21,728 nt of DNA from a virus. Shown in pieces: positions 1 to 21,728 of this stretch. Below the pieces are notes generated by a model. That model was not told where the DNA came from and did not search any database. It worked only from the letters and a program-made list of their open reading frames with translations. The stretch is from IMG/VR virus record IMGVR_UViG_3300030430_000901, positions 3,035-24,762 of that record; one strand, written 5' to 3'. Made by a program: the position numbers and the translations under genes. Positions within the stretch are counted from its first letter, which is position 1. Each line of letters starts with the position of its first letter.

Positions 1-799
1 TTCAGGTCTTGCACCACATTTAATATTAGATCCAGTTCAACAAACATCTATAAAAGGTGCATTAAATAGGAGTGAGTCTTATGCTTTTCTTATTAATAAT
101 GATGGTACTATAGCTGTATTTTATTCTGTAAGAGGAGATCAAAAAGCAGGTTGGAGTTTATGGAACACACAAGGATTATGGCATAGTATTTGTGCAGTAC
201 ATGAAAGATTATTTGTTGTGTGTGCAAGAGATGATGGTTCAGGATCAACAAAACTGTTTCTTGAAGAGTTCCAAGATGATATGCCAATGGATTTTTGTGA
301 TACATTTAGTGGAAGCTCTAGTGTTTTTGGAAGTTTAACTTCACATTTTAGTAATGGTGCAAGTGTAAAAGCTACTAATGGCAATGATTTTTTGGGTACA
401 TTTACCGTATCAGGTGGACAAATAGATGCTAGTAATGTTAAAACTGGAATAACACAAGCATTTATTGGTTATGCTTTTACACCTACACTTAAAACATTGC
501 CTATAGATGCACAGATTACTGGAGGGCCTTTGACTGGAGAACCAAGACAAATACCTAAAGTTGTTTTAGATTTATTTGAAACACTTGCTGTAAATGTTAC
601 TGGACCTAATACAACATCAACTACAAGAGATCTAGTAATAAGAAATGTTACAGATGATATGTCAGCAGATAGAACTGCAATAACTGGTAAAGAAGAATTT
701 AGATTATTAGGATATAGTCGTGATCCACGAGTTACAGTATCACAGTCTTTCCCTTTAGATTTACAAATTAATGGAATGATAGTAGAGGTGGCATTTTGA
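1..799 (+). CDS. Tail nozzle / tail tubular protein B (T7 gp12-like), 3' part
   Basis: The reading frame is open from the left edge (first full codon at base 2) to TGA at 797-799, so about 265 C-terminal residues are visible and the start lies outside the window. The pattern fits the C-terminal part of T7 gp12-like nozzle proteins: an NDGTIAVF strand, a tryptophan-rich segment (AGWSLWNT, QGLWHS), a HERLFVVCAR strand, then LFLEEF. Further on come a GYAFTPTLKTLPI segment and the closing stretch FRLLGYSRDPRVTVSQSFPL. In that family the protein forms the distal tail tube that DNA passes through during ejection. It is followed, with a 4-base overlap, by gp14-, gp15- and gp16-like genes, the order found in T7. 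Family assignment is by remembered pattern, not by a search. Confidence 0.82.
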   Translation, partial: SGLAPHLILDPVQQTSIKGALNRSESYAFLINNDGTIAVFYSVRGDQKAGWSLWNTQGLWHSICAVHERLFVVCARDDGSGSTKLFLEEFQDDMPMDFCDTFSGSSSVFGSLTSHFSNGASVKATNGNDFLGTFTVSGGQIDASNVKTGITQAFIGYAFTPTLKTLPIDAQITGGPLTGEPRQIPKVVLDLFETLAVNVTGPNTTSTTRDLVIRNVTDDMSADRTAITGKEEFRLLGYSRDPRVTVSQSFPLDLQINGMIVEVAF

Positions 800-1302
800 T
801 TGAATTAGCATTAGCATTAGCTTCAACTGGTATATCTGTTTATGGTTCTATGCAATCAGCAAAAGCAGCAAAAGCACAAGGTAGATTACAAGCTAGACAA
901 TTTGCAAATCAGGCAAAAAATCTTTCTTTTACTGCTTTGCAAGAACATAATAAACGTTTAGCAAACTTAAAAACTTTTATAAATACTAATGAAGCAATAT
1001 TAGGAACATCAGGTAGAGCAATGGATAGATCATATGATGCTATTATTAAAAAAGCAAAAGAAGATGCAAAGACAGATGTAACTCGATTAAGAATAGATAC
1101 AGCTATGAAAATTGGTCAGTCTTCATTACAAAGTTCAATGGAAATGTTACAAGCACAAAATAGAGCAAATGCTTATAAACTTCAGGCATTAGGATCAATA
1201 ATGTCAGGTGCAACAAAAGCATATCCACTTATGCCTAATAGTCCTGCATCTACACCTACTACTCCAACTATTTATACTCAAACATTTGATAGGGCATTTT
1301 AA
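796..1302 (+). CDS. Internal virion protein, T7 gp14-like
   Basis: This 168-aa protein starts with TTG at 796, overlapping the upstream stop by four bases (TTGA). The start is supported by AGAGG at 784-788, seven bases upstream; the next in-frame ATG would remove the hydrophobic N-terminus. Residues 1-20 are hydrophobic (ELALALASTGISVYGSM). They are followed by a long Ala/Gln/Lys-rich helical region that looks like coiled coil (about 22-135) and a Pro/Thr-rich tail. T7 gp14 (196 aa) is a small ejection protein with a similar make-up that lodges in the host outer membrane after ejection. Position between a gp12-like gene and gp15/gp16-like genes is the main evidence; sequence similarity to T7 itself cannot be judged here. 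Confidence 0.72.
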   Translation: MIELALALASTGISVYGSMQSAKAAKAQGRLQARQFANQAKNLSFTALQEHNKRLANLKTFINTNEAILGTSGRAMDRSYDAIIKKAKEDAKTDVTRLRIDTAMKIGQSSLQSSMEMLQAQNRANAYKLQALGSIMSGATKAYPLMPNSPASTPTTPTIYTQTFDRAF

Positions 1303-3566
1303 TGAGTTTTGTAAAATCAAAAGGTACTTCATTTATAAATAGACCAGTAGGAGTTGTATCAACAAGAACTGGTGCTGAAGAATTTTATCAAACTATAACA
1401 AATGCAGCTAATGCAAGATCAAATGATTTATTTGCATTAGCTAAACAAGAAGAAATAAAAAAAGGTAAAGACTTTGGAATGTCTGTACAGACAAGAGATT
1501 CTAATGGTGCATTAAGAATAGAAAAAGCACCTGATACTTTTAGTGATATAGCAAAACAAACTGCTCAAGGTGAATTAAATAGAATCTATGCAAATGAATT
1601 AGCTAGTGATATTAATATACAACTGACTAAAGCAAGAGCAGATTCTAATGGAGATGTAGAGGCATTTCAAAAATTAGCTTCTACTTATTTAGGTGAAACG
1701 GAAAAGGTTATAAGCAGTCAAGGTGGCAGTCAATATGTCCCTATGCTTCGTAGAGCAGGGTCAAGATATATGGCTCAACATCAAAATGCTTTAGTTTTAC
1801 AAGCAGCAAAAGATGCAGAAAGAAAAGCTACTAATTTAGAATTAAATGATATTGGTAATAAGTTAATAGAATTAGATGCTCTTATATCAGATGGTGTAGA
1901 ATTTTTTGATGATGAACTTACTGGAGAAGATTTATCTGTAGATTCTTGGAGAGAATCTTTAGTACAAAGAGTTAATGTATTATTGAATAATGGCAAGATA
2001 TCAAATCCTAAACATAAAGAGATAGTTGGTGAAATACAAAAAACATTTTTAACTGCAAGAACAAGATATAAACTAAATCCAATGGGTAACTCTTTAGATA
2101 TTAATGCAATTAACATATTAAAAAACTTTGCTTTAGATGGAAGTTTAACAGATTCAGAAAAAGAAACTTTAGCAAAGTATGATGTTGATGATGCTTGGTT
2201 AGAAGACTTTGATAAGATAACAAGAACAAATAGAGATTATATTGTGCAAAGAATAAACCAGTTTGGAACAGCAGTTAATGGAAGATTATCATTGATAGGG
2301 AAAAAAAATAAAGATATTGAGTTTGCTAGAAAATTTGATGGCAATGATATATTTAGATTTCGTGGTGATGATGAAAAGAAAATGGATACTTATTTATCAA
2401 ATAAGTATAATAATGGTCAATCATTAACTAATAATGATATTTATAGAATAGCATCAACACAACAAGGTTTATCTGATTTATTAAAACATAATGGTCTATC
2501 AAGAAAAGTAAAAGATTTGTTTCAAAATTTACCACAGTTTTTAACTAAAGTTCAAAAAGAAGGTGACAAAGCATTGCCTGAGCTAATTAAACAAGTTGAT
2601 CTATTTAAAAATTTTTATACATCTTTTGGCATTGGTGGCAATATAAGTAATCAATCATTTCGAGATAGTATTGGTAATGGAACATTTGAGCAATGGTTAT
2701 CATTGACAACACGCATAGGATTATATGGTGAAGAAAATGTTGCAGGTATTTTAAAAGATATACAGTCAACTGATATTGATGCAGCAGCTCGAGAAGTTAT
2801 GCAAAAGAAAAACTTATCAATTATTGATTCTGATTTTACAAAGTTTGGAGTAGAAGCAAGTGTTAACTCACTAATGAGAAAGTATATTGATGAAGGATTG
2901 TTTGGTAGTGGTGCAGACTTTAATCCTGAATCTATTTTATATATGAAAATGGTGGCTAAAAAAGAATTAGCTATTGATAATACAGATGAATCAACACTAA
3001 AAGAAGTATTAAAAAATACCTATAATGCTTTATATGTAGAGTCATCAGTAATATTTAGTGAGTCACAACAAACTGGTGAATCAGCTTTTTATACTTTTGG
3101 TATGGGTACAAAATATTTAAGAAGTAGATTTGCGCCTGAAAGATTTTTTGGTACTGGCGAAGTATTTGATGGTTTTAAATTGTATGTTAATAATCATGTA
3201 AAAAAAATTATGGGTGATGGCAAAGATTATAAGTTAGGCGAAAATATATTTTTATTTCCAACTAAAAGATCAGGTACATTAAGTACAGCAGAATATATGG
3301 TCGTATCAAGTGATGGACAATCACAGTTATTGAAACAAGATGGTGATATTATTGCTATTACTACAAATGGTTATATGAAAAAACTTAATGATGAAAATAG
3401 AGTAAAGTATCTTGCTAGAATAGAGGAATTGAGAACACAAAGACTTAGAAGGATTAGAGGTGAAAAAAAATTAGCTAAAGAATTAAATAAAGATGAAAGT
3501 TTTTTAACTAAATTTTTTAAAAGCTTTACAGCAACTCAAGATATATCAGGACAATTATTAAAGTAA
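1302..3566 (+). CDS. Internal virion protein, T7 gp15-like
   Basis: The protein has 754 aa, close to T7 gp15 (747 aa), and lies between the gp14-like and gp16-like genes. The ATG at 1302 overlaps the upstream TAA by one base (TAATG), with AGGG at 1291-1294 as ribosome binding site. The sequence is polar, charged and mostly helical, with no signal peptide and no clear membrane segment. An N-terminal RPVGVVSTRTGAEEFYQ segment (about 15-31) and a helical stretch near 40-180 fit marine podovirus gp15-type proteins. In T7, gp15 and gp16 form the tube that carries DNA across the periplasm. The function is inferred from gene order, size and composition; no enzymatic motif was seen. Confidence 0.68.
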   Translation: MSFVKSKGTSFINRPVGVVSTRTGAEEFYQTITNAANARSNDLFALAKQEEIKKGKDFGMSVQTRDSNGALRIEKAPDTFSDIAKQTAQGELNRIYANELASDINIQLTKARADSNGDVEAFQKLASTYLGETEKVISSQGGSQYVPMLRRAGSRYMAQHQNALVLQAAKDAERKATNLELNDIGNKLIELDALISDGVEFFDDELTGEDLSVDSWRESLVQRVNVLLNNGKISNPKHKEIVGEIQKTFLTARTRYKLNPMGNSLDINAINILKNFALDGSLTDSEKETLAKYDVDDAWLEDFDKITRTNRDYIVQRINQFGTAVNGRLSLIGKKNKDIEFARKFDGNDIFRFRGDDEKKMDTYLSNKYNNGQSLTNNDIYRIASTQQGLSDLLKHNGLSRKVKDLFQNLPQFLTKVQKEGDKALPELIKQVDLFKNFYTSFGIGGNISNQSFRDSIGNGTFEQWLSLTTRIGLYGEENVAGILKDIQSTDIDAAAREVMQKKNLSIIDSDFTKFGVEASVNSLMRKYIDEGLFGSGADFNPESILYMKMVAKKELAIDNTDESTLKEVLKNTYNALYVESSVIFSESQQTGESAFYTFGMGTKYLRSRFAPERFFGTGEVFDGFKLYVNNHVKKIMGDGKDYKLGENIFLFPTKRSGTLSTAEYMVVSSDGQSQLLKQDGDIIAITTNGYMKKLNDENRVKYLARIEELRTQRLRRIRGEKKLAKELNKDESFLTKFFKSFTATQDISGQLLK

Positions 3567-6500
3567 ATGCCACAACCAATACCATATTATAGTAGAAATC
3601 AGGGTATATCTACTGCACCTGACTTAGGATTTTGGGAAGATGTAGGTAATAATTATGCAAGACAATATAAGGGTATATTAAGAAGTTTTAATGCTACATT
3701 GTTTGAAGATTTTGCTACAGAAGAAGCAGAAGAAGACTTTGCTTGGTATAATGATATTGAAGGATATGAAGAAGAAGCCGAGTATTTAAGTCAGGCAAAA
3801 AATAAAAAACATCTAGATTACTTAAAAGAAAATTTAGAAATACAAAGAGAGATAAGACGTAAGGCTGAAAGAGGTGGTCTTTTACCTGCTATTGTTGCAG
3901 GTATTGCAGATCCATTAAATGTAGGTTTTATGTTGCCTATATTTAATACTGGAATTAAAGCAGCATGGGCTGCAAAAAATGCTTTTGGTGTTGGATATGA
4001 AACTGCAAAGATTGCTATTCCTTTTGCTATAACAAGAGAAGCAATCAGAGCGCCCTTTGATCCTTACACTACTCCTGCTGAAATTGGCACAAATATTAGT
4101 GCCGAAGTTTTATTATCTGGTCTATTTGGTTTTGCTGCTAGAGGTGCTGCAAATAAAATTATGCAACCTAAAATACAAGAACAAATAAGAAAATATACAG
4201 ATTATATATTTGATAGAGATACTGTGCCAAAAGATATTAATGGTGTTAAAGTAAATCAAAAGCCAACTGGGAAAACTAGACCTGATGGCTCTAAGGTTAA
4301 TGCTTATTACAGTCCAACAAAAAAAGAAATATTTTGGGATAAAAAATCTTTGTTAGCTGAATATCCTTTGAAGCCTTGGCTGTCACCAAAAGTTAAAGGT
4401 GTATTACCTTTACCTGATTACTTATTTCAAAAGCCTGAAGATTGGGCAAGATTTGTTTTACATCATGAAAAAGCTCATGCAGAAAATCCATTTGAAACAT
4501 TACGAGTTCGTTATGAAGCACAGAATCCAAAGTTTAAATACTCAAGAGCAGATTATGAAAATGAAATAAATAATATTGCTATCGAAGATTTTTCAAAAGG
4601 TTTTGGTTTAAAACAAACAGTAGGTACTAAAAGTGCTTTTTACAAAATGATAACCACCCCGGGCAAAAGAATATTAAATGACACAAAGTTACCTAATGAA
4701 GTAAAAAAGTCTTATGCAGATTTATTTTACAATGCTTCTATAAGTTTAGAAGGTAACATAAGTGGTGCAGGTACTCATGGAGGTAGTGCTGCTGCTCGAA
4801 CAATACCTTATAGAGCAACTGCAAAAAGAACTAATGATGCGATAAAGGCTGCTTATCTACAAGAGTTAAAAGGTAATCCATTACCATCACAAATTCTTGG
4901 TTTAGACATAGATGCTTTAAATGTTAATATAGGTAACTATGGAGAAAAAGCAAAAACTTATCAGGATTTTTATACTAACTTAGTGTCTTTCAGAATTGAT
5001 ATGGTAACTGATCCTGCATTTGATATGAATTTATATCATGCTTTGCCTGATAAACATAAAGAAGCATTAGATGCTTTAGAAACATTTTTTACAGACTTTG
5101 AAAGAGGATTAAGAGATGTTGGTAAATTAGGTGATGATACTGGTGTAAGAAGAAAAGTAGCTGATTTAAAAAAAGCTAAAGAATATCATGAATCACAAAT
5201 AGAAAAACTAAATAATAATATTGTTAAAGGTGAAACAAGAAATAAATATATTAACGGCCTTAAAATAGATTTGATAGCTACACAAAAAAAGATAGATGAA
5301 TTAATTGATTTTAAAGATAAAAACATTGGTAAACCAGTTACTCGTGAATTTTTTAATAAAAAAATTGGTAGAAGAGATTTTGGTAAATTTAAATATACAT
5401 TAAAAATGTTTAATGAAGATGCTGCAGAATTAAATCGTAGAAGAATTAGATTGAGAGGTGAAATAAAAGCAGCAGAAGCAAATCCAAACTATCTTGGTTC
5501 AGAAGAATTTAATATTAAAGCTTTACCTCATCAGCAATATATAAATAAAATAGATACTGAAATAGAATTTTTAAATGGAGTTCTAGAAACACCAATTAGA
5601 AAGTATGCTTATCCCCATTATTTTAATAAAAGACTTTTGTTAGAAGATGAAGATGCAAGAGCAAGATTTAAACAAAAACTTACAGATTTATTTTTTAAGG
5701 AAGGTGGCAAAAAAACTTGGGACGAAGATGCAGGTACTTATTTATTAGAAGATGCAAGTGATATTGGTAAAGCAGCAGAGTTAGCAGAAAGAACAATATT
5801 GCATATATTGGAAGACCCTGACATTATTAATCTTTTACCTAGAAGTGGTAAAAGAAAACATTTAATGTCAAGAGTTTTAAATTTTCCAACACATGAATTA
5901 AAAGAGTTTCTTATTCTTGATGAACGAGTAATTGAAAAATATGCAAATCAAATGGGATTCCATATAGAGTTTGGTCGTAAAATGGGAACTATGGATATTG
6001 ATGATGTATTAGATAGACATGAATTTGTTATGAGAGAAAAAGGTATACCTGAAAAAAGAATAGCTGAAGTTCGTAGTGATTTTCTAGGAGATTATGAAAG
6101 AGAAGCAGGTATACATATTCGTGATCCTGAAGCTAGAAGTCAAAGATATGTAAGAAACTTACAAGCTGTTTCAGGTATGACCTATTTAGGTGGTGCAGGT
6201 TTAACTTCGCTTATAGATGCAATAGGTATGCCTATATTTAGATTCGGTCCAACAAAAGTTTTTAAAACTGGCATGGACGCAATTAATGGCGATTTTCCTG
6301 AAATGTTAAAAATGGGAAAACAACTTAGAGAGTTAGCAGGTGAAGCTATTGAAATGGACGTTCCTATTGTCCAACAAAGATATTTAGGTGATAGTGTAAG
6401 AGATATACAACCTCGTCTTACTGAAAGAGTTATACAAGGTGCAGAGAAAATATTTTATAGAGCTAATCTATTATCACAAGTAACAGTTTCAGGTAAATAT

Positions 6501-7451
6501 TTAGATAATAATATTTTAATACCTACATTTTATCAAAGAGCATTAGCTATAAAAAACAAAGAGTCTATAATTGAAGGTGGCAAAGATGTAACTGATAGTG
6601 TTATTGAAGAATTAGGAAGATATGGCATAAGTCCACAAACAGCTATAGATATGATAGATTCAGCAGGTTGGTACTTATCTCCAAAAGGTCATGCAAAAGT
6701 TGATGTAAGTCAATGGGCAGATAAAACTGTTGCTCAAAGAGAGCTTAAACAAAGTTTTCTTACATACATGGGTACTCATGCTCGTAATACTATTATGAAC
6801 GCTACTGCTTTTGATAAACCTATGATTATGGACGGATTTATGTATGTAAGAATGAATCCAATATTAAAGATGATGGGGTATACTGCTGATAAAAGAGCTT
6901 CGACAGCTAATATAGATATGGTTCGTTTAGAATCTGCTGTATTTGCTTTACCCTTTAAGTTCTTAAATTTTGTATTTGCAGCTACAAATCGTATTACAAT
7001 GAATATGTTTGATGCAAATGTACAACATAGATTGATTGGTATGATGAGTTTAATGGCTATGAGTTATTTAGTTCTAAAATTAAAGAAACCTGATTATTGG
7101 TTTGAGAATAGAAGCACACCTGACTTAGTTGCAAGAGTTTTTGATCAAAGTGGTATTGGTGGTATTTATACAGATTTAGCTTATCATGCTATACATAGTG
7201 CCATTGCACAAGGACATTATAATAATAATACTGCTTGGATTAAAGGTAAGTTTAAGCCAACACCTATGGACGATTTATTTGATAAATTAGGCGCAACACC
7301 CAGTATGATTAGAGAATGGACTCTTGGTGCATATGAATTAACAGCAGGTAGCACAGATGAAGGCATTAAAAGATTGATGAGGAATGTACCCATATTAGGT
7401 TTATTTGGTATGAATAGAGATTTAGAGTATATGTTTAGAACAAGATATTGA
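3567..7451 (+). CDS. Large internal virion (ejection) protein, T7 gp16-like, with metallopeptidase-like domain
   Basis: This 1294-aa protein is almost the length of T7 gp16 (1318 aa) and follows the gp15-like gene; its ATG directly abuts the upstream TAA. Residues 1-103 are charged. Residues 104-195 are hydrophobic and Gly/Ala-rich (GGLLPAIVAGIADPLNVGF), like the membrane-associated part of ejection proteins. Residues about 225-345 form an unusual domain with H300-E-K-A-H304 preceded by DWARFVLH, then E331-x-E333-I-N335-x-I-A338. This is the spacing of HExxH...ExxAN gluzincin-type zinc peptidases such as the ImmA/IrrE group. No T7-style N-terminal lytic transglycosylase is recognisable. A hydrophobic helix lies near 1156-1173 (LIGMMSLMAMSYLVLKL). 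The ejectosome role rests on context; peptidase activity is inferred from the motif only. Confidence 0.78.
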   Translation: MPQPIPYYSRNQGISTAPDLGFWEDVGNNYARQYKGILRSFNATLFEDFATEEAEEDFAWYNDIEGYEEEAEYLSQAKNKKHLDYLKENLEIQREIRRKAERGGLLPAIVAGIADPLNVGFMLPIFNTGIKAAWAAKNAFGVGYETAKIAIPFAITREAIRAPFDPYTTPAEIGTNISAEVLLSGLFGFAARGAANKIMQPKIQEQIRKYTDYIFDRDTVPKDINGVKVNQKPTGKTRPDGSKVNAYYSPTKKEIFWDKKSLLAEYPLKPWLSPKVKGVLPLPDYLFQKPEDWARFVLHHEKAHAENPFETLRVRYEAQNPKFKYSRADYENEINNIAIEDFSKGFGLKQTVGTKSAFYKMITTPGKRILNDTKLPNEVKKSYADLFYNASISLEGNISGAGTHGGSAAARTIPYRATAKRTNDAIKAAYLQELKGNPLPSQILGLDIDALNVNIGNYGEKAKTYQDFYTNLVSFRIDMVTDPAFDMNLYHALPDKHKEALDALETFFTDFERGLRDVGKLGDDTGVRRKVADLKKAKEYHESQIEKLNNNIVKGETRNKYINGLKIDLIATQKKIDELIDFKDKNIGKPVTREFFNKKIGRRDFGKFKYTLKMFNEDAAELNRRRIRLRGEIKAAEANPNYLGSEEFNIKALPHQQYINKIDTEIEFLNGVLETPIRKYAYPHYFNKRLLLEDEDARARFKQKLTDLFFKEGGKKTWDEDAGTYLLEDASDIGKAAELAERTILHILEDPDIINLLPRSGKRKHLMSRVLNFPTHELKEFLILDERVIEKYANQMGFHIEFGRKMGTMDIDDVLDRHEFVMREKGIPEKRIAEVRSDFLGDYEREAGIHIRDPEARSQRYVRNLQAVSGMTYLGGAGLTSLIDAIGMPIFRFGPTKVFKTGMDAINGDFPEMLKMGKQLRELAGEAIEMDVPIVQQRYLGDSVRDIQPRLTERVIQGAEKIFYRANLLSQVTVSGKYLDNNILIPTFYQRALAIKNKESIIEGGKDVTDSVIEELGRYGISPQTAIDMIDSAGWYLSPKGHAKVDVSQWADKTVAQRELKQSFLTYMGTHARNTIMNATAFDKPMIMDGFMYVRMNPILKMMGYTADKRASTANIDMVRLESAVFALPFKFLNFVFAATNRITMNMFDANVQHRLIGMMSLMAMSYLVLKLKKPDYWFENRSTPDLVARVFDQSGIGGIYTDLAYHAIHSAIAQGHYNNNTAWIKGKFKPTPMDDLFDKLGATPSMIREWTLGAYELTAGSTDEGIKRLMRNVPILGLFGMNRDLEYMFRTRY
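4242..4602 (+). other. HExxH gluzincin-like domain inside the gp16-like protein
   Basis: This segment encodes roughly residues 226-345. CAT CAT GAA AAA GCT CAT at 4461-4478 gives H299-H300-E301-K302-A303-H304, so two zinc ligands (H300, H304) and the catalytic glutamate (E301) are present. GAA at 4557-4559 (E331) starts an E-x-E-x-N-x-x-A pattern 27 residues later and is the candidate third ligand. A preceding beta-like stretch (NAYYSPTKKEIFWDKK) and an amphipathic helix (PEDWARFVL) match the usual lead-in to such an active site. Domain borders are estimates. Confidence 0.6.
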
Positions 7452-7486: not shown

Positions 7487-8896
7487 ATGACTATAGCTTT
7501 AAGTGCAAATACACCAAGAATAAGTTACACAGTAAATCAAGGTGTGACACAAACTTCTTTTCCAGTACCTTTTGTATTTTTTACAACGAGTACAGATCTA
7601 AATGTTTTTGTAGATGGTGTAGCAAGAACCTTTGATTCTTCAACTTCTAGTACATCTCTGTATACTGTTTCTGGTGGTGATGGCTCTACTGGTACAGTTA
7701 CAACGTCTGTAACTGGTGCTACTGGTGGTAGTACAGTTGTTATTACAAGATCAATACCATTAGCAAGAACAACTGATTTTCCTAGTGGTGGTGCTTTTGA
7801 AGTTGCAAAATTAAATACAGAGCTAGATACATTGCTTACTATGATAGCTGATGCTGATGATGAAAACTCAAGAGCTATTAGGTTACAAGATAATGATGCT
7901 GCAGCTACATTAACAATACCTTTAGCAGATGATAGAAAAGGTAAGATACTTGGATTTAATTCATCAAGTGGAAATGCTGAAGCTGTTGATTCTATTACAA
8001 CTGCTTCTATTGCTGCTGTGAATACTGTGTCAGCAGGTGGAAGTGCTACTGCTAGTGCTGCTGTATCAGGTGGCAATATAGCATTTACATTAGGTATACC
8101 TACTGGTGCTACTGGTGCAACTGGTCCTGCAGGTGGTGGACTTGCTGAGTTATCAGAAGACAGTTCTCCACAATTAGCAGGTAATTTAGATTTAGTTACG
8201 TTTGATATTGTAACTACAAGTAATCGTGATCTTGAACTAGCACCAGATGGTACTGGTCATGTCACAATCAAAGGCAATACAAATTCAGGTGCTATACAAT
8301 TTAACTGTGAAAGCAATTCACACGGACAAATAGTGAAAGCACAGCCTCATAGTGCAGGAGTTACCAATGAATTAACTTTACCTGCAGGTAGTAATCAAGA
8401 ACTTGTTGGTGCATCTGCTACACAAACACTTACTAATAAGACAATAGGTGTATCTCAATTATCAGGTCAAGTTGCAATAGCTAATGGTGGTACTGGTGCA
8501 TCTTCACTAGCAGGTGCAAATATTGTTACAACTAATGCACAACAAACTTTTACAAAGGCACAAGTGCCTTCAACATATACCGCTGCTTTGTCTGCTACGA
8601 GTGGTGTGTTAGATTATGATACATACCAAAATTTTATAATTACTTTAGCTAGTGGTGCTAATACACTAGCAGCACCTACAACGGAAGCCTCACAGATAGG
8701 TCAAACTGGAGTTATTATTTTTATTCAACCTAGTAGTAGTAGTGCAGGAACAGTAAGTCTACATGGTGATTATGAGTCAGTTGGTGGAGGTGGTCTTACT
8801 TTATCAAGTACAAATAGTGCTTATGATGTAGTTCCATATATAATCAAAGCAGATAATTCTATTTTACTTGGTACACCACAGTTGGCTTTCAGCTAA
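7487..8896 (+). CDS. Tail fibre protein with T7 gp17-type N-terminus
   Basis: This 469-aa protein begins with an N-terminal domain (about 1-150) of the T7 gp17 tail-fibre type. It has a SYTVNQGVTQTSFPVPFVFF strand pair, a DLNVFVDGVA strand, VVITRSIPLARTTDFPSGG, then a helix (AKLNTELDTLLTMIADADDE); in T7 this domain fixes the fibre to the tail. Residues 203-217 hold a short collagen-like run (GATGATGPAG). The distal part carries motifs frequent in marine phage fibres, ATQTLTNKTI near 310-320 and AIANGGTGASSL near 331-342, and a C-terminal beta-rich domain. No catalytic motif is visible, so it probably acts as adsorption shaft or receptor-contact protein. The start is supported by AAAGG six bases upstream. 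The next gene overlaps its stop by one base. Confidence 0.82.
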   Translation: MTIALSANTPRISYTVNQGVTQTSFPVPFVFFTTSTDLNVFVDGVARTFDSSTSSTSLYTVSGGDGSTGTVTTSVTGATGGSTVVITRSIPLARTTDFPSGGAFEVAKLNTELDTLLTMIADADDENSRAIRLQDNDAAATLTIPLADDRKGKILGFNSSSGNAEAVDSITTASIAAVNTVSAGGSATASAAVSGGNIAFTLGIPTGATGATGPAGGGLAELSEDSSPQLAGNLDLVTFDIVTTSNRDLELAPDGTGHVTIKGNTNSGAIQFNCESNSHGQIVKAQPHSAGVTNELTLPAGSNQELVGASATQTLTNKTIGVSQLSGQVAIANGGTGASSLAGANIVTTNAQQTFTKAQVPSTYTAALSATSGVLDYDTYQNFIITLASGANTLAAPTTEASQIGQTGVIIFIQPSSSSAGTVSLHGDYESVGGGGLTLSSTNSAYDVVPYIIKADNSILLGTPQLAFS

Positions 8897-11346
8897 TGTT
8901 TAGCTCAGATAAATGGTTTGGCTCTACTTCTGCTGAATTTTATAATGGTGTTATCTCACGAAGTCTTAGACTTGATGCTACAAGCCAAGCTAGACTAGAA
9001 TCTCCTAGTTTTTCTTCAGATGGTGGTGATACATGGACTTGGAGTGCATGGGTTAAGTTCCATGATTTATCAAAATCGAAACAAATACTTTTTGGTAGAA
9101 GTGGTAATAATGCTTGTTTAATTTATAATGATGGTGGTACTGGTGAGGGTGAATTAGACCTTAATGATGATGGTGCAGTTGTAAGAAGATCAACTGGTTT
9201 TTTTAGAGATGTAAGTAACTGGTATCATGTAACATTAAATGGCAACGGAACTGTAAATAAGCTATGGGTAAATGGAGTAGAAGTAAATTTTCCATCAACA
9301 GCAAATATTGGTGATTTAAATGCAGCAGTAGTTCATTATATTGGATATGGTATAAATAGTAATTTTTATGCAGATATAACTTTTGCAGATATTAATTTTG
9401 TAAGTGGAACAGCATTAGACTATAGTTCTTTTGCTGAATTTAAGAATGGTGTTCTTATACCTATTGAGCCAAGTGTGACCTATGGTAGTAATGGTTTTAG
9501 GTTACAATTTCTACAAACTGGTAGTGGTGCTGATGCAAGTGGCATTGGTGCAGATACAAGTGGCAATGGCAATCATTTTACAGCAACAAATTTAAACTCT
9601 CATGATGTAATAATAGATTGTCCAGAAAATAATTTCTGTACTATTAATGATCAATTTGCAGATGTTACAGCTAATACAATAGATGAAGGTGGATTGAAAG
9701 TAATAACAAGCACAGCAGGTCGTTCTTTTAGTTCTGGTACTTTTTTAATGACAAGTGGTAAATGGTATTGGGAATTTAGAGTAGATGCAAATTCTGGTGG
9801 TATGGGTGTTGCTAAAGTTAATGGCTCAGATGGCACTGGTGCGTATAGATCTGTTACTAGCTCAAGTACAAGTGCAAACTCAACAGATTATTATTATGGA
9901 GAAACAAACTGGGTTATGTATGGTGATGGTATTGTTCATAATGGTGGTTATGTAGGTGGCACTTCAGGTGGTATGGGTAGTCCTAGTTATCCTCAAATAT
10001 GGGGTGTAGCAGTTGATATGGACGCAAGTCCACCAACAATAAGTTATTATATAAATGGAAGTTCAGTAGGAAGTGCTGATTTAGATACTGGGTTTGATTA
10101 CATACCTATTGCAGGAGATGGTAGTGGTGGTGTCAGTAGAATTATACACGTCAATTTTGGTCAGAATCCAACATTTAATGGCGAGGAAACTGCAGGAACT
10201 AATACAGATGGAAATGGTAATGGCTTGTTTCATGATGCTGTGCCTTCAGGACATCTAGCATTGTGTGCTGCTAATTTGCCTGACACTAATTTTAGTGCTA
10301 CACAAGATGAACAACCGACAGATCATTTTAATTCACTTCTTTATACTGGTGATGGCTCAAGTTCAAGAAATATAACTGGGGTAGGGTTTCAACCTGATTG
10401 GGTATGGATAGCACAAAGAAACAATAGTTCAGCAAAAGTTATGTATGACTCAAATAGAGGTGTTAACAAAATGTTAAGAAGTGATAGTACAGCTGCAGAA
10501 GATGATAGTTCAATTTATGGTTATTTAAGTGCTTTTGGATCAGATGGTTTTACATTAACAGCAGGAACTACTAATAATAATTATACAAACGAGAATAGTA
10601 AAAATATAGTTGCATGGAACTGGAAAGCAAATGGTGGAACAACTAGCAGTAACGGAGATGGTTCTAAAACTAGCACAGTACAAGCAAATCAAACTGCTGG
10701 GTTTAGTATCGTGCTTTATTCAGGTGATACTTCATCATTTACAGTTGGACACGGATTAAACTCTGCTCCAGAATGGGTTATAGTTAAATCAAGAACACAC
10801 TCAGAAAGATGGGCAATATTTCATACATCTATTTCTGATCAATACATTTATCTTAATGAAACTTTTGCAGGTTCAACTGGTAATGCTGATGAAAGATTTG
10901 GAAATAGCACAAGTGTAGTTGTTCCAAATTCAACTGTTGTTACTCTTGGTGCAAACAATTCAGATGTCAGTAAAAATGGTGAAAATTATGTTATGTATTG
11001 CTTTCACTCTGTTGAGGGATATTCTAAGTTTGGCAGTTATACTGGCAATGGTTCCTCAGATGGTGCATTTGTCTATACTGGATTTAAACCTGCTTGGCTT
11101 CTTCTAAAATCATCTTCTTCTGCAGGAGATAACTGGTTTATATTTGATAACAAAAGAGATGTAGATAATGTAGTAGGATCAGATTTAAATCCAGATTCAT
11201 CTGCCGCGGAAGCAACTTCAACATATATGGATTTTTTAAGCAATGGCTTTAAATTACGTACAACATCTGGTGCAGTAAATGATGCAACAATATTTATATA
11301 TATGGCTTTTGCAGAACAGCCATTTAAATTTAGTAATGCAAGATAG
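8896..11346 (+). CDS. Virion adhesin: LamG-like, SPRY-like and three DUF7483-like repeats
   Basis: This 816-aa, beta-rich protein starts at an ATG overlapping the fibre stop (TAATG) with no strong ribosome binding site, so translation is probably coupled. Residues about 18-205 look like a concanavalin A/LamG-type lectin fold (RSLRLDA, WTWSAWVKF, WYHVTLNGNG). Residues about 285-422 look like a SPRY domain (SGKWYWEFRVD, WGVAVDMD, TISYYINGS). Three degenerate repeats follow at about 480-577, 602-705 and 710-808. Each has a (Y)TG(D/N)GSS-like opening, a G(F/L)xPxW(V/L) strand and a closing aromatic-rich strand (NIVAWNWKA, YVMYCFHSVE, IFIYMAFAEQ), as in DUF7483 proteins of marine phages. A receptor- or glycan-binding role is inferred from the domains and from its place next to the fibre gene. 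Confidence 0.75.
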   Translation: MFSSDKWFGSTSAEFYNGVISRSLRLDATSQARLESPSFSSDGGDTWTWSAWVKFHDLSKSKQILFGRSGNNACLIYNDGGTGEGELDLNDDGAVVRRSTGFFRDVSNWYHVTLNGNGTVNKLWVNGVEVNFPSTANIGDLNAAVVHYIGYGINSNFYADITFADINFVSGTALDYSSFAEFKNGVLIPIEPSVTYGSNGFRLQFLQTGSGADASGIGADTSGNGNHFTATNLNSHDVIIDCPENNFCTINDQFADVTANTIDEGGLKVITSTAGRSFSSGTFLMTSGKWYWEFRVDANSGGMGVAKVNGSDGTGAYRSVTSSSTSANSTDYYYGETNWVMYGDGIVHNGGYVGGTSGGMGSPSYPQIWGVAVDMDASPPTISYYINGSSVGSADLDTGFDYIPIAGDGSGGVSRIIHVNFGQNPTFNGEETAGTNTDGNGNGLFHDAVPSGHLALCAANLPDTNFSATQDEQPTDHFNSLLYTGDGSSSRNITGVGFQPDWVWIAQRNNSSAKVMYDSNRGVNKMLRSDSTAAEDDSSIYGYLSAFGSDGFTLTAGTTNNNYTNENSKNIVAWNWKANGGTTSSNGDGSKTSTVQANQTAGFSIVLYSGDTSSFTVGHGLNSAPEWVIVKSRTHSERWAIFHTSISDQYIYLNETFAGSTGNADERFGNSTSVVVPNSTVVTLGANNSDVSKNGENYVMYCFHSVEGYSKFGSYTGNGSSDGAFVYTGFKPAWLLLKSSSSAGDNWFIFDNKRDVDNVVGSDLNPDSSAAEATSTYMDFLSNGFKLRTTSGAVNDATIFIYMAFAEQPFKFSNAR
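10333..11322 (+). repeat. Three tandem diverged protein repeats in the adhesin
   Basis: Three consecutive modules of about 100-105 residues share a pattern: LLYTGDGSSS / IVLYSGDTSS / FGSYTGNGSS at the start, GFQPDWVWI / LNSAPEWVIV / GFKPAWLLL next, and WNWKA / YCFHSVEG / YMAFAEQP at the end. They are conserved at protein level but strongly diverged in DNA, so the duplications are old. Borders are approximate. Confidence 0.6.
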
Positions 11347-11355: not shown

Positions 11356-11931
11356 ATGCCTTGGAAAAAATCTGATGGAACTTATATTAGAGAGGGTAAA
11401 GCATGGGTAGGTGTTGATGGCACTAAATTCCCTAGCGTTTGGAGAAGATTTACAGATGATGAACTTAAAAAATTTGGATTAACATGGGAAGACCCACCAA
11501 AATCCTCTGAATCTTATGATGATAAATTTTATTGGGGTAGAAAAACAGATGGTTCATTAATAGAAAGAAATCTTGCTGATGTAAATGTTGTTGATGATGA
11601 CGGCAAGGCAGTAATAGATCATCAGACTGGAAAACAAATGATTGAATTAGGCTTAAAATCTATTTGGATAGCAAAAACAAAAGAGATGGCACAACAAAAA
11701 TTAAATAAACATGATTGGATGATTACTCGTAAGGCAGAAAAAGGCACAGAAATACCTTCTGACATTTCAACTTATAGAGATGCCATTAGAACAAAATGTG
11801 CTTCTATTGAAACAAGTATAAATAATTGTAGCAGTCATGCAGATTTTATAAAGTTATTTGATGTCCCTTTAGATAGTGAAGGTCAACCAACTGGTAATGC
11901 ACCAATGTACGATTTTCCAGATGAGATTTAA
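11356..11931 (+). CDS. Putative tail fibre assembly protein / chaperone (DUF4376-like)
   Basis: The protein has 191 aa. The C-terminal half, about residues 105-165, has the DUF4376-like pattern found in phage tail-fibre assembly proteins: a helix (IAKTKEMAQQKLNKHDWM), then TRKAEKGTEIPSDISTYR with the conserved RK.E.G..IP....YR signature, then a second helix. The N-terminal half (about 1-100) contains short beta segments with many Trp and Lys and is not recognised. It lies directly after the two fibre/adhesin genes, where fibre chaperones are usually found, so a role in folding or attaching one of them is likely. It could instead be a small structural protein. No signal peptide or membrane segment is present. 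Confidence 0.6.
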   Translation: MPWKKSDGTYIREGKAWVGVDGTKFPSVWRRFTDDELKKFGLTWEDPPKSSESYDDKFYWGRKTDGSLIERNLADVNVVDDDGKAVIDHQTGKQMIELGLKSIWIAKTKEMAQQKLNKHDWMITRKAEKGTEIPSDISTYRDAIRTKCASIETSINNCSSHADFIKLFDVPLDSEGQPTGNAPMYDFPDEI

Positions 11932-11933
11932 TC

Positions 11934-12512
11934 GTGCCAATAACGTCTTTAAAGTTCAGACCAGGAATAAATAAAGAGACAACATCTTACTCTAACAAAG
12001 GTGGTTGGAATGATTGTGATTTAGTTCGTTTTCGATTTGGCTATCCAGAAAAATTAGGTGGATGGGAAAAATATTCAGTAAACACTTTTCTTGGTGCATC
12101 ACGATCTCTTCATGCTTGGGCAAATTTAGAGGGCAATAAATATCTTGGGTTGGGTACTGAATTAAAATTTTACATTGAGGAATCTCAAGGGTTTAATGAC
12201 ATAACACCATTAAGAAGAAAAATTGTAAGTGGTGTAACCGTTTTTGATTTAGGTGGGCTGACTGTAACTGCTGCAACCTCTGGGAACGCTGGAACCAGTC
12301 AAGTGGGCACAGTAGTGGTTGATCCTGAACAAGTGGTAAGTGTAAGATCAACTAATCCAGAAAATAATTTAAGAATACTGGGAACTACAGCAGTTGGAAC
12401 TGTAACTGTGGAAGCTATACAAAGACCAATTACTGCTAACCTATTTGCTACTGGTCAAATTGGAACAGTCACTGTTGAAGATACTAGAAATGAAACAATC
12501 TCTGTGGGTTAA
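11934..12512 (+). CDS. P22 gp10-like stabilisation / nozzle protein, N-terminal part with beta-repeat insert
   Basis: This 192-aa frame starts with GTG at 11934, two bases after the previous stop. Residues 1-100 (MPITSLKFRPGIN, RFRFGYPEKLGGWEKY, SLHAWANLEGNKYLGLGTEL, ITPLRR) are the typical start of the marine-phage protein related to P22 gp10 / phage stabilisation proteins, which is normally about 600 aa in one frame. From about residue 101 it switches to a beta-rich segment with three spaced VGTVVV / VGTVTV / IGTVTV units (residues 124, 154 and 176), then stops at 12510-12512. The continuation of the family pattern is found in the next gene in the -1 frame. It may be a functional half-protein, part of a recoded fusion, or the result of an indel. 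Confidence 0.72.
   Translation: MPITSLKFRPGINKETTSYSNKGGWNDCDLVRFRFGYPEKLGGWEKYSVNTFLGASRSLHAWANLEGNKYLGLGTELKFYIEESQGFNDITPLRRKIVSGVTVFDLGGLTVTAATSGNAGTSQVGTVVVDPEQVVSVRSTNPENNLRILGTTAVGTVTVEAIQRPITANLFATGQIGTVTVEDTRNETISVG
12303..12476 (+). repeat. Beta-strand repeat units (xGTVTV) in insert
   Basis: Three coding units, at 12303-12320 (VGTVVV), 12393-12410 (VGTVTV) and 12459-12476 (IGTVTV), are spaced 90 and 66 bases apart. Similar ATGxVGTVTV repeats recur in structural proteins of uncultured marine phages. They interrupt an otherwise family-typical protein just before the frame break. Confidence 0.55.
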
Positions 12513-12514
12513 AA

Positions 12515-14056
12515 ATGGCTATAACATTTACATCGGCAACTGATAGCACAAGCGTAACTGTAAATGACACATTGCATGGAGCTATTGCTGGAGATTTTGT
12601 AACATTTAGTAATGTCAGTACAGGTGACACAAGTCTTAACACACAACTCAATAATGAATTTAGTATCACATCAATTACAGATGAAAATAGTTACGTCATA
12701 ACATTAAGTGCAAATGCAGCCGCAGCTAAGTCTAGTGCTGGATCAGCAGATGCAGAGTATCAACTCAATGTGGGTATCAACACAGTTGTGCCTGGTGATG
12801 GATGGGGTGCTGGAACTTGGGGTGCAGACGGATGGGGTTCAGCTTCTTCAGATGTCGTAGGTGGAGGATCATTACGCTTATGGTCTCAAGATAATTTTGG
12901 AGAGGATTTAATCTTTAATCAAAGAGATGGATTTGTATTTTATTGGGATAAATCTAACGGTGTAAGCACAAGAGCTAAAAATTTAATAGAGCTATCTGAT
13001 GCTGCACCAACAAAGTCAAGAAAAGTTATTGTGTCTGAAAGGGATCGTCATGTTATTTGTTTTGGTGCTAATCCTATAGGTCAAACTGCACAAGACAGAC
13101 TATTAATTAGATTTAGTTCACAAGAAAATCCATTTTTTTGGACCCCTACAGCAACAAATACTGCAGGTGACTTACGAGTGGGTTCTGGTTCTGAAATTAT
13201 TACAGCAGTTAAAACAAGACGAGAAATGATTGTATTGACTGATACATCTGTTTTTTCCATGCAATTTATTGGTCCACCATTTACTTTTGGTATTAATCAA
13301 CTTGCTAGTAGTATTACAGTGCGAGGGTTCAACACCGCAGTGGCTGTAGGTGATGCAGTATTTTGGATGGGATATGATCGTTTTTATGTTTACGATGGTC
13401 GTGTTCAAGTCATTCCTTGTTCTGTTAGAGATCATGTGTTTCAAGATTTTAACGAGACACAATCTGATAAAGTTTATGCAGGCGTTAATTCAGCTTTTGG
13501 TGAGGTCTTTTGGTTTTATCCATCACAGACAAATTCAGTGTCAAACGGCGGAACTGGAGAAAATGATAAATATGTTGTATACAACTATGACCAAAAGATT
13601 TGGTATGTTGGTAATCTTGCACGAAGTTCTTGGATAGATAGAGGTGTGTATCAATATCCTATGGCAACGGACTCTAACCTTGTTTACAATCATGAAAAAG
13701 GTAATGATAATGATGGGACTGCCTTTACATCCTTTATTGAATCAAGTCCTTTAGATGTTCAAGATGGAGATCAGTTTGTATTTTTAAGGCGTATGATACC
13801 AGACGTTAGTTTTGATAATAGTGACAGTGGTTTGAGTAATGATAACAAACAAGCCGTATTTTCCTTAAAAGCACAACGTAGTCCAGGTGGTGGATTTGTT
13901 AAAACATCTACAAATACTGTGTCATCGACTACGGAACTTAATCATTTAAGATTGCGTGGGAGATCCTTTGGTCTTAGGGTAGAAAGTACAACTCAAGGTG
14001 TAAACTGGAGGCTTGGTACCCCAAGAGTAGATTTAAGAGCGGATGGAGATAGATGA
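12515..14056 (+). CDS. P22 gp10-like stabilisation / nozzle protein, C-terminal part
   Basis: This 513-aa frame begins with ATG two bases after the stop of the preceding frame, with no clear Shine-Dalgarno site, so it probably depends on reinitiation or on recoding. Its first residues (MAITFTSATDSTSVTVNDTL, HGAIAGDFVTFS) continue the family pattern that broke off in the upstream gene. Later come GWGAGTWGADGWG, LRLWSQDNFGEDLIFNQRDG, KVIVSERDRHVICFG, LLIRFSSQENPFFWTP, TNTAGDLRVGSGSEIITAV and C-terminal LRLRGRSFGLRVES, all typical of this beta-propeller-like tail protein of HMO-2011-type and uncultured marine phages. In P22, gp10 extends and plugs the tail tube. Together the two frames give about 705 aa. 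The gene downstream overlaps its stop by four bases (ATGA). Confidence 0.75.
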   Translation: MAITFTSATDSTSVTVNDTLHGAIAGDFVTFSNVSTGDTSLNTQLNNEFSITSITDENSYVITLSANAAAAKSSAGSADAEYQLNVGINTVVPGDGWGAGTWGADGWGSASSDVVGGGSLRLWSQDNFGEDLIFNQRDGFVFYWDKSNGVSTRAKNLIELSDAAPTKSRKVIVSERDRHVICFGANPIGQTAQDRLLIRFSSQENPFFWTPTATNTAGDLRVGSGSEIITAVKTRREMIVLTDTSVFSMQFIGPPFTFGINQLASSITVRGFNTAVAVGDAVFWMGYDRFYVYDGRVQVIPCSVRDHVFQDFNETQSDKVYAGVNSAFGEVFWFYPSQTNSVSNGGTGENDKYVVYNYDQKIWYVGNLARSSWIDRGVYQYPMATDSNLVYNHEKGNDNDGTAFTSFIESSPLDVQDGDQFVFLRRMIPDVSFDNSDSGLSNDNKQAVFSLKAQRSPGGGFVKTSTNTVSSTTELNHLRLRGRSFGLRVESTTQGVNWRLGTPRVDLRADGDR

Positions 14057-15865: not shown

Positions 15866-16773
15866 TGGCAGTAGAAGAAACCATACAAACCGTCAGGGAA
15901 AGTCCCGAAATAGAAGCCTATCGTATTGGCCTTTTAAAAACAGCAAAAGAACTTTCTGACCTAGGAATTGATTTACCTCCCCAGCAAGTTGCAGAGATGA
16001 CAGGTTTACAAAGAGCAGCTGCTGCCCAACAGATGGCAGGCCTTGGTGCTTTTTTACCTTATCTGCAACAAGCCGGTAGTACGATGGCAACAGCTGGGCA
16101 AACCTTAGGCGGAGTAGAAGACGCTTTAAGAGCTGGAGCCGGTCCTGTGACAGATGAAATGTTACAGCGTTATATGAATCCTTTTCAACAAGCTGTGCAA
16201 GATGAAATAAATAGAAGTTTTGATATACAACAAAGACAAGCAGCCGCGGGGGCTATAGGACAAGGTGCGTTTGGTGGTTCACGAGGTGAAATAGCACAAA
16301 GAGAAATAGACAGAAATAGAGCAGACGCATTAGCTAGATCACAAGCACAAAACTTTTTACAGGCACAACAGGCAGCTGAAAGAGAATTAGCAAGGCAGAC
16401 ACAACTTGGATCTGGTATTGCAGGTCTTGCAGGACAAATGGGACAATTAGGATTAAGACAAGCCGCCCTTGGCGAAACAGGACAAGCATTACAACAAAGA
16501 GATATTGACAGTGCGTACAAGCTCGGATCTTTATTACAGGCTCAAGATCAAGCTAGACTCGATGCAGCAAGAGCAAGTGATTTAGCACAGCTTTATGAGC
16601 CATATCAACGACTAGGTTTTTTATCTGATATTTACAGTAAAGTACCTACGTCACAATCAACAATTACACAGGCAAGTACGCCTAATGTATCACCATTTCA
16701 GCAATATTTAGGCCTCGGTATTGCAGGATTATCAGCAGCAGCAGGGGCTCAGAAAGCAGGGTTATTTGGATGA
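15865..16773 (+). CDS. Gln/Ala-rich internal virion protein candidate (302 aa)
   Basis: The ATG at 15865 overlaps the upstream TAA (TAATG), with a purine-rich site (GGAAAGG) about ten bases upstream. The protein is rich in Ala, Gln and Gly and mostly helical. It contains the block YMNPFQQAVQDEINRSFDIQ (near 112-131), then GAIGQGAFGGSRGEIAQREI, a long Gln-rich helix, LAQLYEPYQRLGFLSDIYSK (near 244-263), and a hydrophobic C-terminus (LGLGIAGLSAAAGAQKAGLF). This pattern is familiar from uncultured marine podoviruses of the HMO-2011 type, where it is regarded as structural. Composition resembles ejection proteins such as P22 gp7, but homology is not claimed. Neighbours suggest it is packaged with the 516- and 930-aa proteins. 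Confidence 0.65.
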   Translation: MAVEETIQTVRESPEIEAYRIGLLKTAKELSDLGIDLPPQQVAEMTGLQRAAAAQQMAGLGAFLPYLQQAGSTMATAGQTLGGVEDALRAGAGPVTDEMLQRYMNPFQQAVQDEINRSFDIQQRQAAAGAIGQGAFGGSRGEIAQREIDRNRADALARSQAQNFLQAQQAAERELARQTQLGSGIAGLAGQMGQLGLRQAALGETGQALQQRDIDSAYKLGSLLQAQDQARLDAARASDLAQLYEPYQRLGFLSDIYSKVPTSQSTITQASTPNVSPFQQYLGLGIAGLSAAAGAQKAGLFG

Positions 16774-19562: not shown

Positions 19563-21728
19563 TGGCTGAAATTAATACCATAACTACTCCGGATGGCCCT
19601 ATAAATTTTCCAGTAATAGAATTTACTAGTGACGAGGCTAATTTTTTTACAGAAGAATTTGGAGGTGAAAAAGCTACTAGTTTTCTTGCAAGAGAAGCTA
19701 TTAGTGAAATTACACAGAATCCAAAGCTTGGTAACCTTTTTACTTACGAAACTTTAAAAGATGGGACTGCCCCATTGTTTGATTTTGATCCTGAGCTGGT
19801 AGGTAAATCAAGTAAAGAAAAATCTTTAAGTGATGAAGAAATATTAAAAGAATTTACAAACCTTGAAGATACAGGGTTTTTTACAGGTTTTGGCAGAGAA
19901 ATATTTAAAACAGCCCCAAGTGCCGCAGGTTTTGTTGGTGGAGCAAAAATAGGTGGTAAACTACAACAGATGATCCCACCTCTTGGGCCAATAGCGATTG
20001 GTGTTAAATTTGCAATACCTGTAACCACCGGTGTGCTTGGAGCTTTTGGTGCTTATGAGATGGGAGACGATGTTTCTGAGTTTGTATTAGGTGAAGAGGG
20101 TCTAATTATACCTAGTCATAAGGCCTCTTATGAAGCAGGAAGAACAACAGCTGGCGGACTGGCATGGTTGCCTACACCTTTTATGATATCAAAAAATGTA
20201 AGTTTTGGTGCAGCTAACTACATTAAAAATTTAGATGAAATATTAAAAACAGGGCAACAACAGATAGGATTACAACGAAGCAAGCCTCCTATAACAACAA
20301 AACTAATATCTGGCGTTGAGACTTTATTAAATAAAACAGGAAAAGAGTTTAAAGATAAGCCAAAGCGAATGGCAGCTTTAGAGGGTTTAAGTGTAGGCGG
20401 TGCAACTACAGGTGCTTATTTTGCAGAAAATTTAGATCCAGGTGGTGTAGCAGCAAGAATAGGTTTTGAAATGACAGGTGCAATTGCTCCACAACTTGCT
20501 TTTGGCACATTCGTAAGAAACTTTGAAGATATACTAGGTAGTTTAAAAAAACCTTTTACAAAAGAAGGACGTAAAGATCTGTTTGATAAATCCGGTGTAA
20601 GCGTTACTAAAAGAAGGTTGCAAGCCGTAGGTCGAATAAAAAAAATATTAGAGGACAATGGTGATGACGTAGAAACTTTAATAAAAGAGTTATCAGATGA
20701 TTCAATCACAAATCAACTCTATGATGAGTCAGGACAGTTAATTAAACTTACCGCAGGTCAAAAGTCAGGTAATCCTACTTTGATGGCGATTGAAGCAAGT
20801 TTGGCCTCCTCTTCACAAGGTTTAGGTAAAACAAGAAAAGAAAACCATGTTCTTGCAAACAAAGCATTAAGAAATTTAATTGGTGCTTTAGTTTTACAAG
20901 GCGATAAAGACGCTTTGAAACAGGCAGCTCAAATTAGAAAATCTCAATTTGATGGTTATTTAGCCGAAAAGCTTGCATTAAGAACTGATCGTGTTCTGGA
21001 CACCTTTAAAAAAATTGCTGGAGACAATCCAATAAATAATAAAAAGTTATCAACACAATTATTTGATGTAACCGGATCTGCTTTACAACAAGCTAGGACA
21101 GAAGAATCAAGACTATACAAAAACATAGGTAATTTTGAAATCACATCGTTTGTGGGGCCAGATGGTAATGCAGTTGATGCTCCTAACTTTATTTCATATT
21201 TAAAAAATAATTTACCGCAGACGCAGGAAGCATTAAGTGAGACATTAAAAGATTTAGGTCCTCTTTATGCTTTTTACCAAAGAAAAGGTAGAGAATTAGG
21301 GTTACCTGAGTTTGTGGAAGAGGCTACAGATAGAGCTGGTAAAGCTGTTGACCTTAGTAAGTTTGACCAAAACATAGACAAAATATTTGAAAAGGGTGCT
21401 TTGCAAAAAGGTAATACAGTTTTAAACGAAATAAATAGAACCTTAAGATATTTAAAATTACCAGAGGTAGATGATGTCTCTAAATTAAAAGATGTTACGA
21501 CTTTTAGTAGAGATGATCTTCTAAATATACAAGAGTATTTTGTATCAAAAACAAACTTTCCAAGAAGATTTGGCACTACTAAAGACGAATTAGCTGTCAG
21601 AGCTTTTGAAAGAGATAAAAGAAATTATACAGCCGCTAAAAATGTTTTTAATAATTTACTTAAAAAAAGCGATGCAAGTCCTACCGCAACGGCAACGGCA
21701 CAAGCAGATGAAGTACAGCCTCTGACTG
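19562..21728 (+). CDS. Giant virion / ejection protein candidate, 5' part (at least 722 aa)
   Basis: The ATG at 19562 overlaps the upstream TAA by one base, and the frame is open for 722 codons to the right edge without a stop, so the end lies outside the window. After an acidic N-terminal region (1-105) come two hydrophobic Gly/Ala-rich regions at about 117-165 (AGFVGGAKIGGKL, LGAFGAYEMG) and 271-316 (ALEGLSVGGATTGAYF, GAIAPQLAFGTF), suited to membrane insertion. A long Lys-rich helical part follows, containing LTAGQKSGNP and SLASSSQGLG, and a Thr/Ala low-complexity stretch (ASPTATATAQA) appears just before the edge. Size, composition and place at the end of the internal-protein cassette fit a large ejection protein analogous to T7 gp16 or P22 gp16. 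No enzyme motif is visible in the part seen. Confidence 0.62.
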   Translation, partial: MAEINTITTPDGPINFPVIEFTSDEANFFTEEFGGEKATSFLAREAISEITQNPKLGNLFTYETLKDGTAPLFDFDPELVGKSSKEKSLSDEEILKEFTNLEDTGFFTGFGREIFKTAPSAAGFVGGAKIGGKLQQMIPPLGPIAIGVKFAIPVTTGVLGAFGAYEMGDDVSEFVLGEEGLIIPSHKASYEAGRTTAGGLAWLPTPFMISKNVSFGAANYIKNLDEILKTGQQQIGLQRSKPPITTKLISGVETLLNKTGKEFKDKPKRMAALEGLSVGGATTGAYFAENLDPGGVAARIGFEMTGAIAPQLAFGTFVRNFEDILGSLKKPFTKEGRKDLFDKSGVSVTKRRLQAVGRIKKILEDNGDDVETLIKELSDDSITNQLYDESGQLIKLTAGQKSGNPTLMAIEASLASSSQGLGKTRKENHVLANKALRNLIGALVLQGDKDALKQAAQIRKSQFDGYLAEKLALRTDRVLDTFKKIAGDNPINNKKLSTQLFDVTGSALQQARTEESRLYKNIGNFEITSFVGPDGNAVDAPNFISYLKNNLPQTQEALSETLKDLGPLYAFYQRKGRELGLPEFVEEATDRAGKAVDLSKFDQNIDKIFEKGALQKGNTVLNEINRTLRYLKLPEVDDVSKLKDVTTFSRDDLLNIQEYFVSKTNFPRRFGTTKDELAVRAFERDKRNYTAAKNVFNNLLKKSDASPTATATAQADEVQPLT

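Follow-up and report, generated by a model that had tools for sequence, protein, structure and literature searches.

A predicted zincin-like domain in a gp16-like ejection protein of an IMG/VR virus and its possible role in infection

An HExxH motif in a gp16-like ejection protein

We analyzed a stretch of 21,728 nucleotides (the window) that covers positions 3035–24762 of the 24.8-kb IMG/VR virus record IMGVR_UViG_3300030430_000901, from a marine phage, and encodes a 1294-amino-acid protein with an HExxH motif. In PHROGs, the open reading frame (ORF) of this protein, 3567–7451, matched phrog_342, 'internal virion protein with endolysin domain' (E 1e-17), and a preceding ORF, 796–1302, matched phrog_418, 'internal virion protein' (E 2e-9). 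The solved 'Internal virion protein' 9sfn_G was matched by a profile of proteins carrying the same domain (E 5e-20), and the gp14-gp15-gp16 gene order was present in the window (Table 1). These matches confirm the gp16 position that the first-pass annotation had given to the protein.

Table 1. Coordinates of the features discussed, in window positions
Feature	Coordinates	Strand	Basis
gp14-position internal virion protein	796..1302	+	phrog_418, E 2e-9
gp15-position protein, 754 aa; peptidoglycan hydrolase not detected	1302..3566	+	Pfam scan
gp16-like ejection (internal virion) protein, 1294 aa, ATG start	3567..7451	+	phrog_342 and 9sfn_G matches
N-core, residues 55–192; hydrophobic segments 105–123 and 173–191	3729..4142	+	hidden Markov model (HMM), hydropathy
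Predicted zincin-like (HExxH) domain, residues 224–346, ~123 aa	4236..4604	+	AlphaFold2 model; 82 distinct sequences
HEKAH, residues 300–304; predicted zinc ligands H300 and H304, general base E301	4464..4478	+	HE..H in 74/78
ENEINNIA, E331 (predicted third ligand) to A338; second C-terminal helix	4557..4580	+	E331 79/82, N335 80/82, A338 75/82
C-core, residues 950–1289; second hydrophobic region 1121–1170	6414..7433	+	HMM, hydropathy

The glutamate E331 lies 27 residues past H304, within Y-E331-N-E-I-N335-N-I-A338. When the window protein was shuffled, HExxH appeared in 2.4% of trials, and HExxH together with a suitably spaced E...[ND]..A in only 0.04%, which makes a chance pairing unlikely. 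A chance motif was rejected on the basis of these shuffles and of conservation across relatives. The motif is genuine, as is settled by its conservation, and the two elements are placed in the ORF as the first-pass annotation had described them.

Proteins 97–98% identical to the window protein were present on three IMG/VR contigs. Among more distant relatives (loci are designated by L numbers), HE(I)AH was kept in L009 and L010/L011, with ~74% identity, and H300, E301, H304, E331 and N335 were all kept in L009 (74%), L068 (61%) and L074 (~47% identity). Viral contigs and 257 Gb of genomes were then scanned with a DNA pattern in which HExxH was fixed (PLPxxxF-x8-F[VI]xxHExxH). This returned 90 stretches from the viral contigs and 5 from the genomes; the downstream part of the domain was present in nearly all viral matches and, among the genome matches, in L137 only. 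The resulting ~82 distinct domain sequences, nearly all of uncultured viruses, showed conservation at positions that the pattern had left unfixed (W271 in 81, A246 in 77, E331 in 79, N335 in 80 and A338 in 75). A second pattern, in which HExxH was left free to avoid circularity, gave 88 stretches, 79 of them distinct and 78 readable. HE..H was present in 74 of the 78, the four exceptions being RE..Y, HE..R, RE..R and KE..R. The conservation check of the first-pass annotation is thus favorable, in that the histidines do not vary freely, yet at least four lineages, including Pelagibacter phage EXVC031P Hodr, have lost residues.

No relatives were found by protein search of the genome contigs. 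A tblastn search of the domain against isolated phages gave only Hodr, in degenerate form, and a weak match in Xanthomonas phage X1. The latter phage (200 kb; OQ427096.1, 87041–87208; E 5e-3) is possibly another isolated carrier.

Predicted fold and related domains

AlphaFold2 prediction with a 66-row alignment gave a predicted local distance difference test (pLDDT) score of >90 over about residues 225–345, and the trimmed domain, residues 224–346, reached a mean pLDDT of 94.9 and a predicted template modeling score of 0.87 (65 rows). The domain model consists of three strands, a helix at 36–45, an HExxH helix at 67–83, an insert helix at 86–96 and a Glu helix at 104–120, with HExxH at positions 77–81 of the trimmed model and E331 at position 108. 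It agrees with the core of phage zincin-like metallopeptidases, which comprises three strands, the HExxH helix and the Glu helix (PMC5512222).

Scans of the window domain alone against Pfam, PHROGs and NCBIfam gave no match. Among 66 members of the family, weak matches were obtained to Pfam M91 (5 members, best E 3e-4), to a PHROG metallo-protease (5 members, 9e-5) and to MPTase-PolyVal (PF18818; 2 members, best E 0.046, below the family cut-off). The best PDB sequence match of the domain, MJ1213, was not significant. Many of the weak, non-significant PDB fold matches returned by Foldseek were zincins, for example lethal factor and aminopeptidase N. In the BFVD fold search, the significant matches were large uncharacterised phage proteins, and the weaker ones included metallopeptidase, peptidase, IrrE-like and SprT-like entries. 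Because the modeled core and these weak but consistent profile and fold matches point the same way, a zincin fold is the best reading of residues 224–346, very probable from the model.

The first-pass annotation had also proposed a gluzincin of the ImmA/IrrE type. The zincin- or gluzincin-type character of the domain is supported, and the kinship to ImmA/IrrE is weak. Profile-profile alignment (hhalign) with Peptidase_M78 (PF06114) placed both motifs in register at P 9e-4 and a probability of 23%, with a thin M78 profile in which a usable HExxH segment came from only 8 of 25 seed loci. Pfam M78 did not match the window domain and was absent among the 25 Pfam families listed for the 66 members. 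ImmA/IrrE (M78) shares HExxH followed by E...N..A, and the window domain differs from it by a long insert between the helices.

The domain most closely resembles the zincin-like metallopeptidases of phage polyvalent proteins and of the N4 virion RNA polymerase (vRNAP). The former (PMC5512222; PF18818) share the HExxH helix, the Glu helix and three strands, and likewise sit in very large proteins that enter the host by ejection or transfer and that also include lysozyme, nuclease or ART domains; ejection of the window protein is deduced from gp16 homology. Unlike them, the window-type domain has its own signature (W271, G278-V279, P281-L-P283 and ENxxN) and is carried by a T7 gp16-type ejection protein. 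Neither gp16 nor internal virion proteins came up in a text search of PMC5512222. The N4 vRNAP, which is also ejected into the cytoplasm, contains an HExxH domain (PMC12633501). The C1 domain of coliphage N4 gp50 (residues 2124–2375) is similar in having HExxH (HELVH) followed by ExxxD (EAYAD) in an ejected podovirus protein, but it has no sequence match to the domain HMM and resides in a different carrying protein. Neither N4 gp50, T7 gp15 nor T7 gp16 matched the domain HMM.

When 41 carrier proteins were compared with PHROGs, 28 matched phrog_342 and 21 matched phrog_16310. Further carriers hold SNase, PDDEXK, ART-PolyVal or LPD23 domains, which are the usual company of polyvalent proteins (PMC5512222). 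In giant carriers (L081, L085 and others), the zincin domain was observed in polyvalent-type proteins beside other enzymes; L081 shows an SNase-like segment, and L085 has a PDDEXK_1 match at 1925–2109. On the minus strand, L046:3851–7846 encodes a 1332-amino-acid protein that looks, by eye, like a single-subunit RNA polymerase followed immediately by the zincin domain, the arrangement of N4 vRNAP; this polymerase likeness was not borne out by a PDB sequence search.

Placement in the gp16 scaffold and loss of catalytic residues

HMMs of the N-core and C-core were iterated over the carriers and phage controls. The N-core was homologous to residues 274–406 of T7 gp16 (E 6e-14). T7 gp16 has been modeled as a transglycosylase (1–156), TMH I (243–410), a cytoplasmic part (411–1118) and TMH II (1119–1290) (PMC8954989), and the homologous segment falls inside TMH I. 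The hydrophobic stretches of the window protein (105–123, 173–191, 1121–1139 and 1152–1170) form a pattern resembling that of T7 gp16. The two proteins are alike in gp14-15-16 order, N-core, length and spacing of hydrophobic regions; the window protein differs in having no N-terminal SLT domain or tape region and in the zincin domain added after the first membrane region. The domain lay between the two cores in 40/40 gp16-like carriers having both, a count that is weaker than it sounds because the N-core of most carriers has only ~55 residues ahead of it. Insertion sites were around 280–340, 380–700 and 880–970, and these varied sites on one scaffold indicate a module set at different points. 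By analogy with the T7 topology, the module should always lie on the presumed cytoplasmic side.

The first-pass annotation had suggested that the domain occupies the place of the transglycosylase. Pfam detected no transglycosylase or SLT domain in the window gp16-like protein (the T7 gp16 positive control scored 1.7e-31), in agreement with that annotation, and recognised no peptidoglycan hydrolase in the gp14-16 proteins of the window. A divergent peptidoglycan hydrolase is still possible in the gp15-position protein, since the annotated transglycosylase of a Vibrio relative likewise escapes Pfam. Relatives that have no zincin domain keep SLT (TL-2011b) or GH108 (ctHz2215) at the gp15 position. 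A probable N-terminal phage lysozyme was present at 14–138 of the L061 protein (11792–13789); its PF00959 match (E 6e-4) narrowly missed the Pfam cut-off. The N-terminus of the related L129 protein is similar. In both, the N-core is preceded by the probable lysozyme and followed by the zincin domain, which indicates that the two functions coexist. The idea of a replacement for the transglycosylase was therefore rejected, since the domain follows the T7 gp16 274–406 homologue, lies between the cores and occurs together with a probable lysozyme in L061/L129.

The catalytic residues have been lost at least four separate times among the gp16-like carriers, with the domain retained. The histidines were lost in L139, L140, L143, L144 and the Hodr clade, in which the scaffold and E301 are kept. 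Hodr, the sole isolated relative found with the window protein, has also lost the catalytic residues. Its gp16-like protein (WDQ27578.1) has ~25% identity over the scaffold and carries the domain at the same place; in Hodr and most of the distant gp16-like contigs, the flanking GVxPLPxxxF...EN is kept and KKE stands where the window has HHExxH. In a FastTree tree of the N-core and C-core (389 columns), inactive L144 paired with active L091 and inactive L139 with active L106 (support 1.0 each), inactive L143 was nested among active copies (0.993), and the Hodr clade (0.927) joined active L117/L137 with a support of 0.924. The ratio of nonsynonymous to synonymous substitution rates (Nei-Gojobori) of the domain was ~0.2–0.5 against the more distant relatives L009, L068 and L074, like the rest of the protein. 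Repeated inactivation with the scaffold kept suggests that the activity is useful only against some hosts.

Elsewhere in the window, a tail-fibre-like protein (8896–11346) contained DUF7483 (E 1e-111) and a concanavalin-like Laminin_G_3 domain. Two large ORFs at 16770–21727, of 930 and 722 amino acids (the latter open at the window end), had no Pfam match; the 930-amino-acid ORF has long charged stretches that are coiled-coil-like by eye.

Proposed role and alternatives

We propose that residues 224–346 form a zincin-fold metallopeptidase module, inserted between the two membrane-inserting regions of a gp16-type ejection protein, in which Zn2+ would be coordinated by H300, H304 and E331, with E301 as the residue that would activate water. 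By homology to gp16, the protein would be packaged in the virion core and ejected through the tail on infection. It may then insert in the host inner membrane with the module facing the cytoplasm together with the DNA-handling part, as in T7 gp16, and, right at the start of infection, cleave a cytoplasmic protein of the host in a zinc-dependent manner, the target being a guess. From its residues and fold, the domain is probably an active peptidase in the window phage. Action after ejection on the cytoplasmic side, by analogy with T7, is somewhat favored. A host protein as the main target is tentative. An ejected cytoplasmic metallopeptidase cleaving a host protein is the best overall explanation, one that we would hold with even confidence and doubt. 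Several results weigh against it. Foldseek searches of the PDB with both models, including the trimmed confident one, gave no match at E <0.5, and no curated family exceeded its cut-off for the domain. The T7 topology is only partly transferable, as the C-core has no HMM match to T7 gp16, and the short stretch ahead of the N-core in most carriers weakens the 40/40 placement.

Alternatively, the domain could cut the ejection protein that contains it or a neighboring one, either ahead of packaging or once ejected, and might for instance release the cytoplasmic part from its membrane anchors. Such self-processing has been proposed for the metallopeptidases of polyvalent proteins, and P1 DdrB is processed before packaging (PMC5512222). 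The domain also often adjoins a membrane core, just past the N-core (~280–340) or just before the C-core (~890–970), but other insertion sites lie at 380–700. Repeated catalytic loss would be costly if entry needed the cleavage, and N4 vRNAP enters the virion without being cleaved (PMC5512222). We favor cleavage of a host protein over self-processing, which we regard as possible but on balance unlikely, for two reasons: the activity has been lost repeatedly in proteins that are themselves retained, and the HExxH domain of N4 reaches the same compartment as part of a protein that is still intact when packaged.

A role in the envelope, in which peptide bonds of peptidoglycan or a periplasmic or membrane protein are cut and the missing transglycosylase's role is taken over, draws on the failure to recognise a peptidoglycan hydrolase in the window gp14-16 proteins and on the SLT or GH108 kept by related phages at the gp15 position. 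However, the domain is past the first membrane region, not ahead of it, and L061/L129 combine it with a probable lysozyme, which makes this role improbable. Entry by cleavage of a periplasmic protein, as the first-pass annotation had suggested, is less likely than a cytoplasmic substrate because the domain follows the first membrane region and lies between both cores. It is also quite unlikely that the domain is not a peptidase at all, being a metal-binding, structural or DNA-handling domain on the HExxH fold or an oxygenase-type HExxH enzyme. Survival of the domain after histidine loss in at least four lineages, the lack of a significant PDB fold match and the occurrence of HExxH in radical-SAM/alphaKG enzymes (cited in PMC12633501) would suit that possibility, but all three residues are present in 74/78, E331 is almost invariant, as in the classical gluzincin set, and the weak profile matches are mostly to metallopeptidases.

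More speculatively, and with greater doubt than belongs to the cytoplasmic metallopeptidase itself, uncultured aquatic phages may share a widespread and uncharacterised family of ejected proteases, with a mobile zincin module at varied sites in the cytoplasmic part of gp16-type proteins that cleaves a host protein, perhaps one involved in defence or transcription, at DNA entry and is switched off repeatedly when the host target is gone. L139/L106 and L144/L091 are natural inactive/active pairs that make the question testable. The module is missed by Pfam, PHROGs and NCBIfam and is active-looking almost only in uncultured phages, dozens of which have it in common. The usual view of ejection proteins is of conduits accompanied by an enzyme that cuts the cell wall. 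That gp16 bears a conserved protease-like module, presumably facing the cytoplasm, suggests that many podoviruses may also send in an enzyme along with the genome, just as N4 sends in its polymerase.

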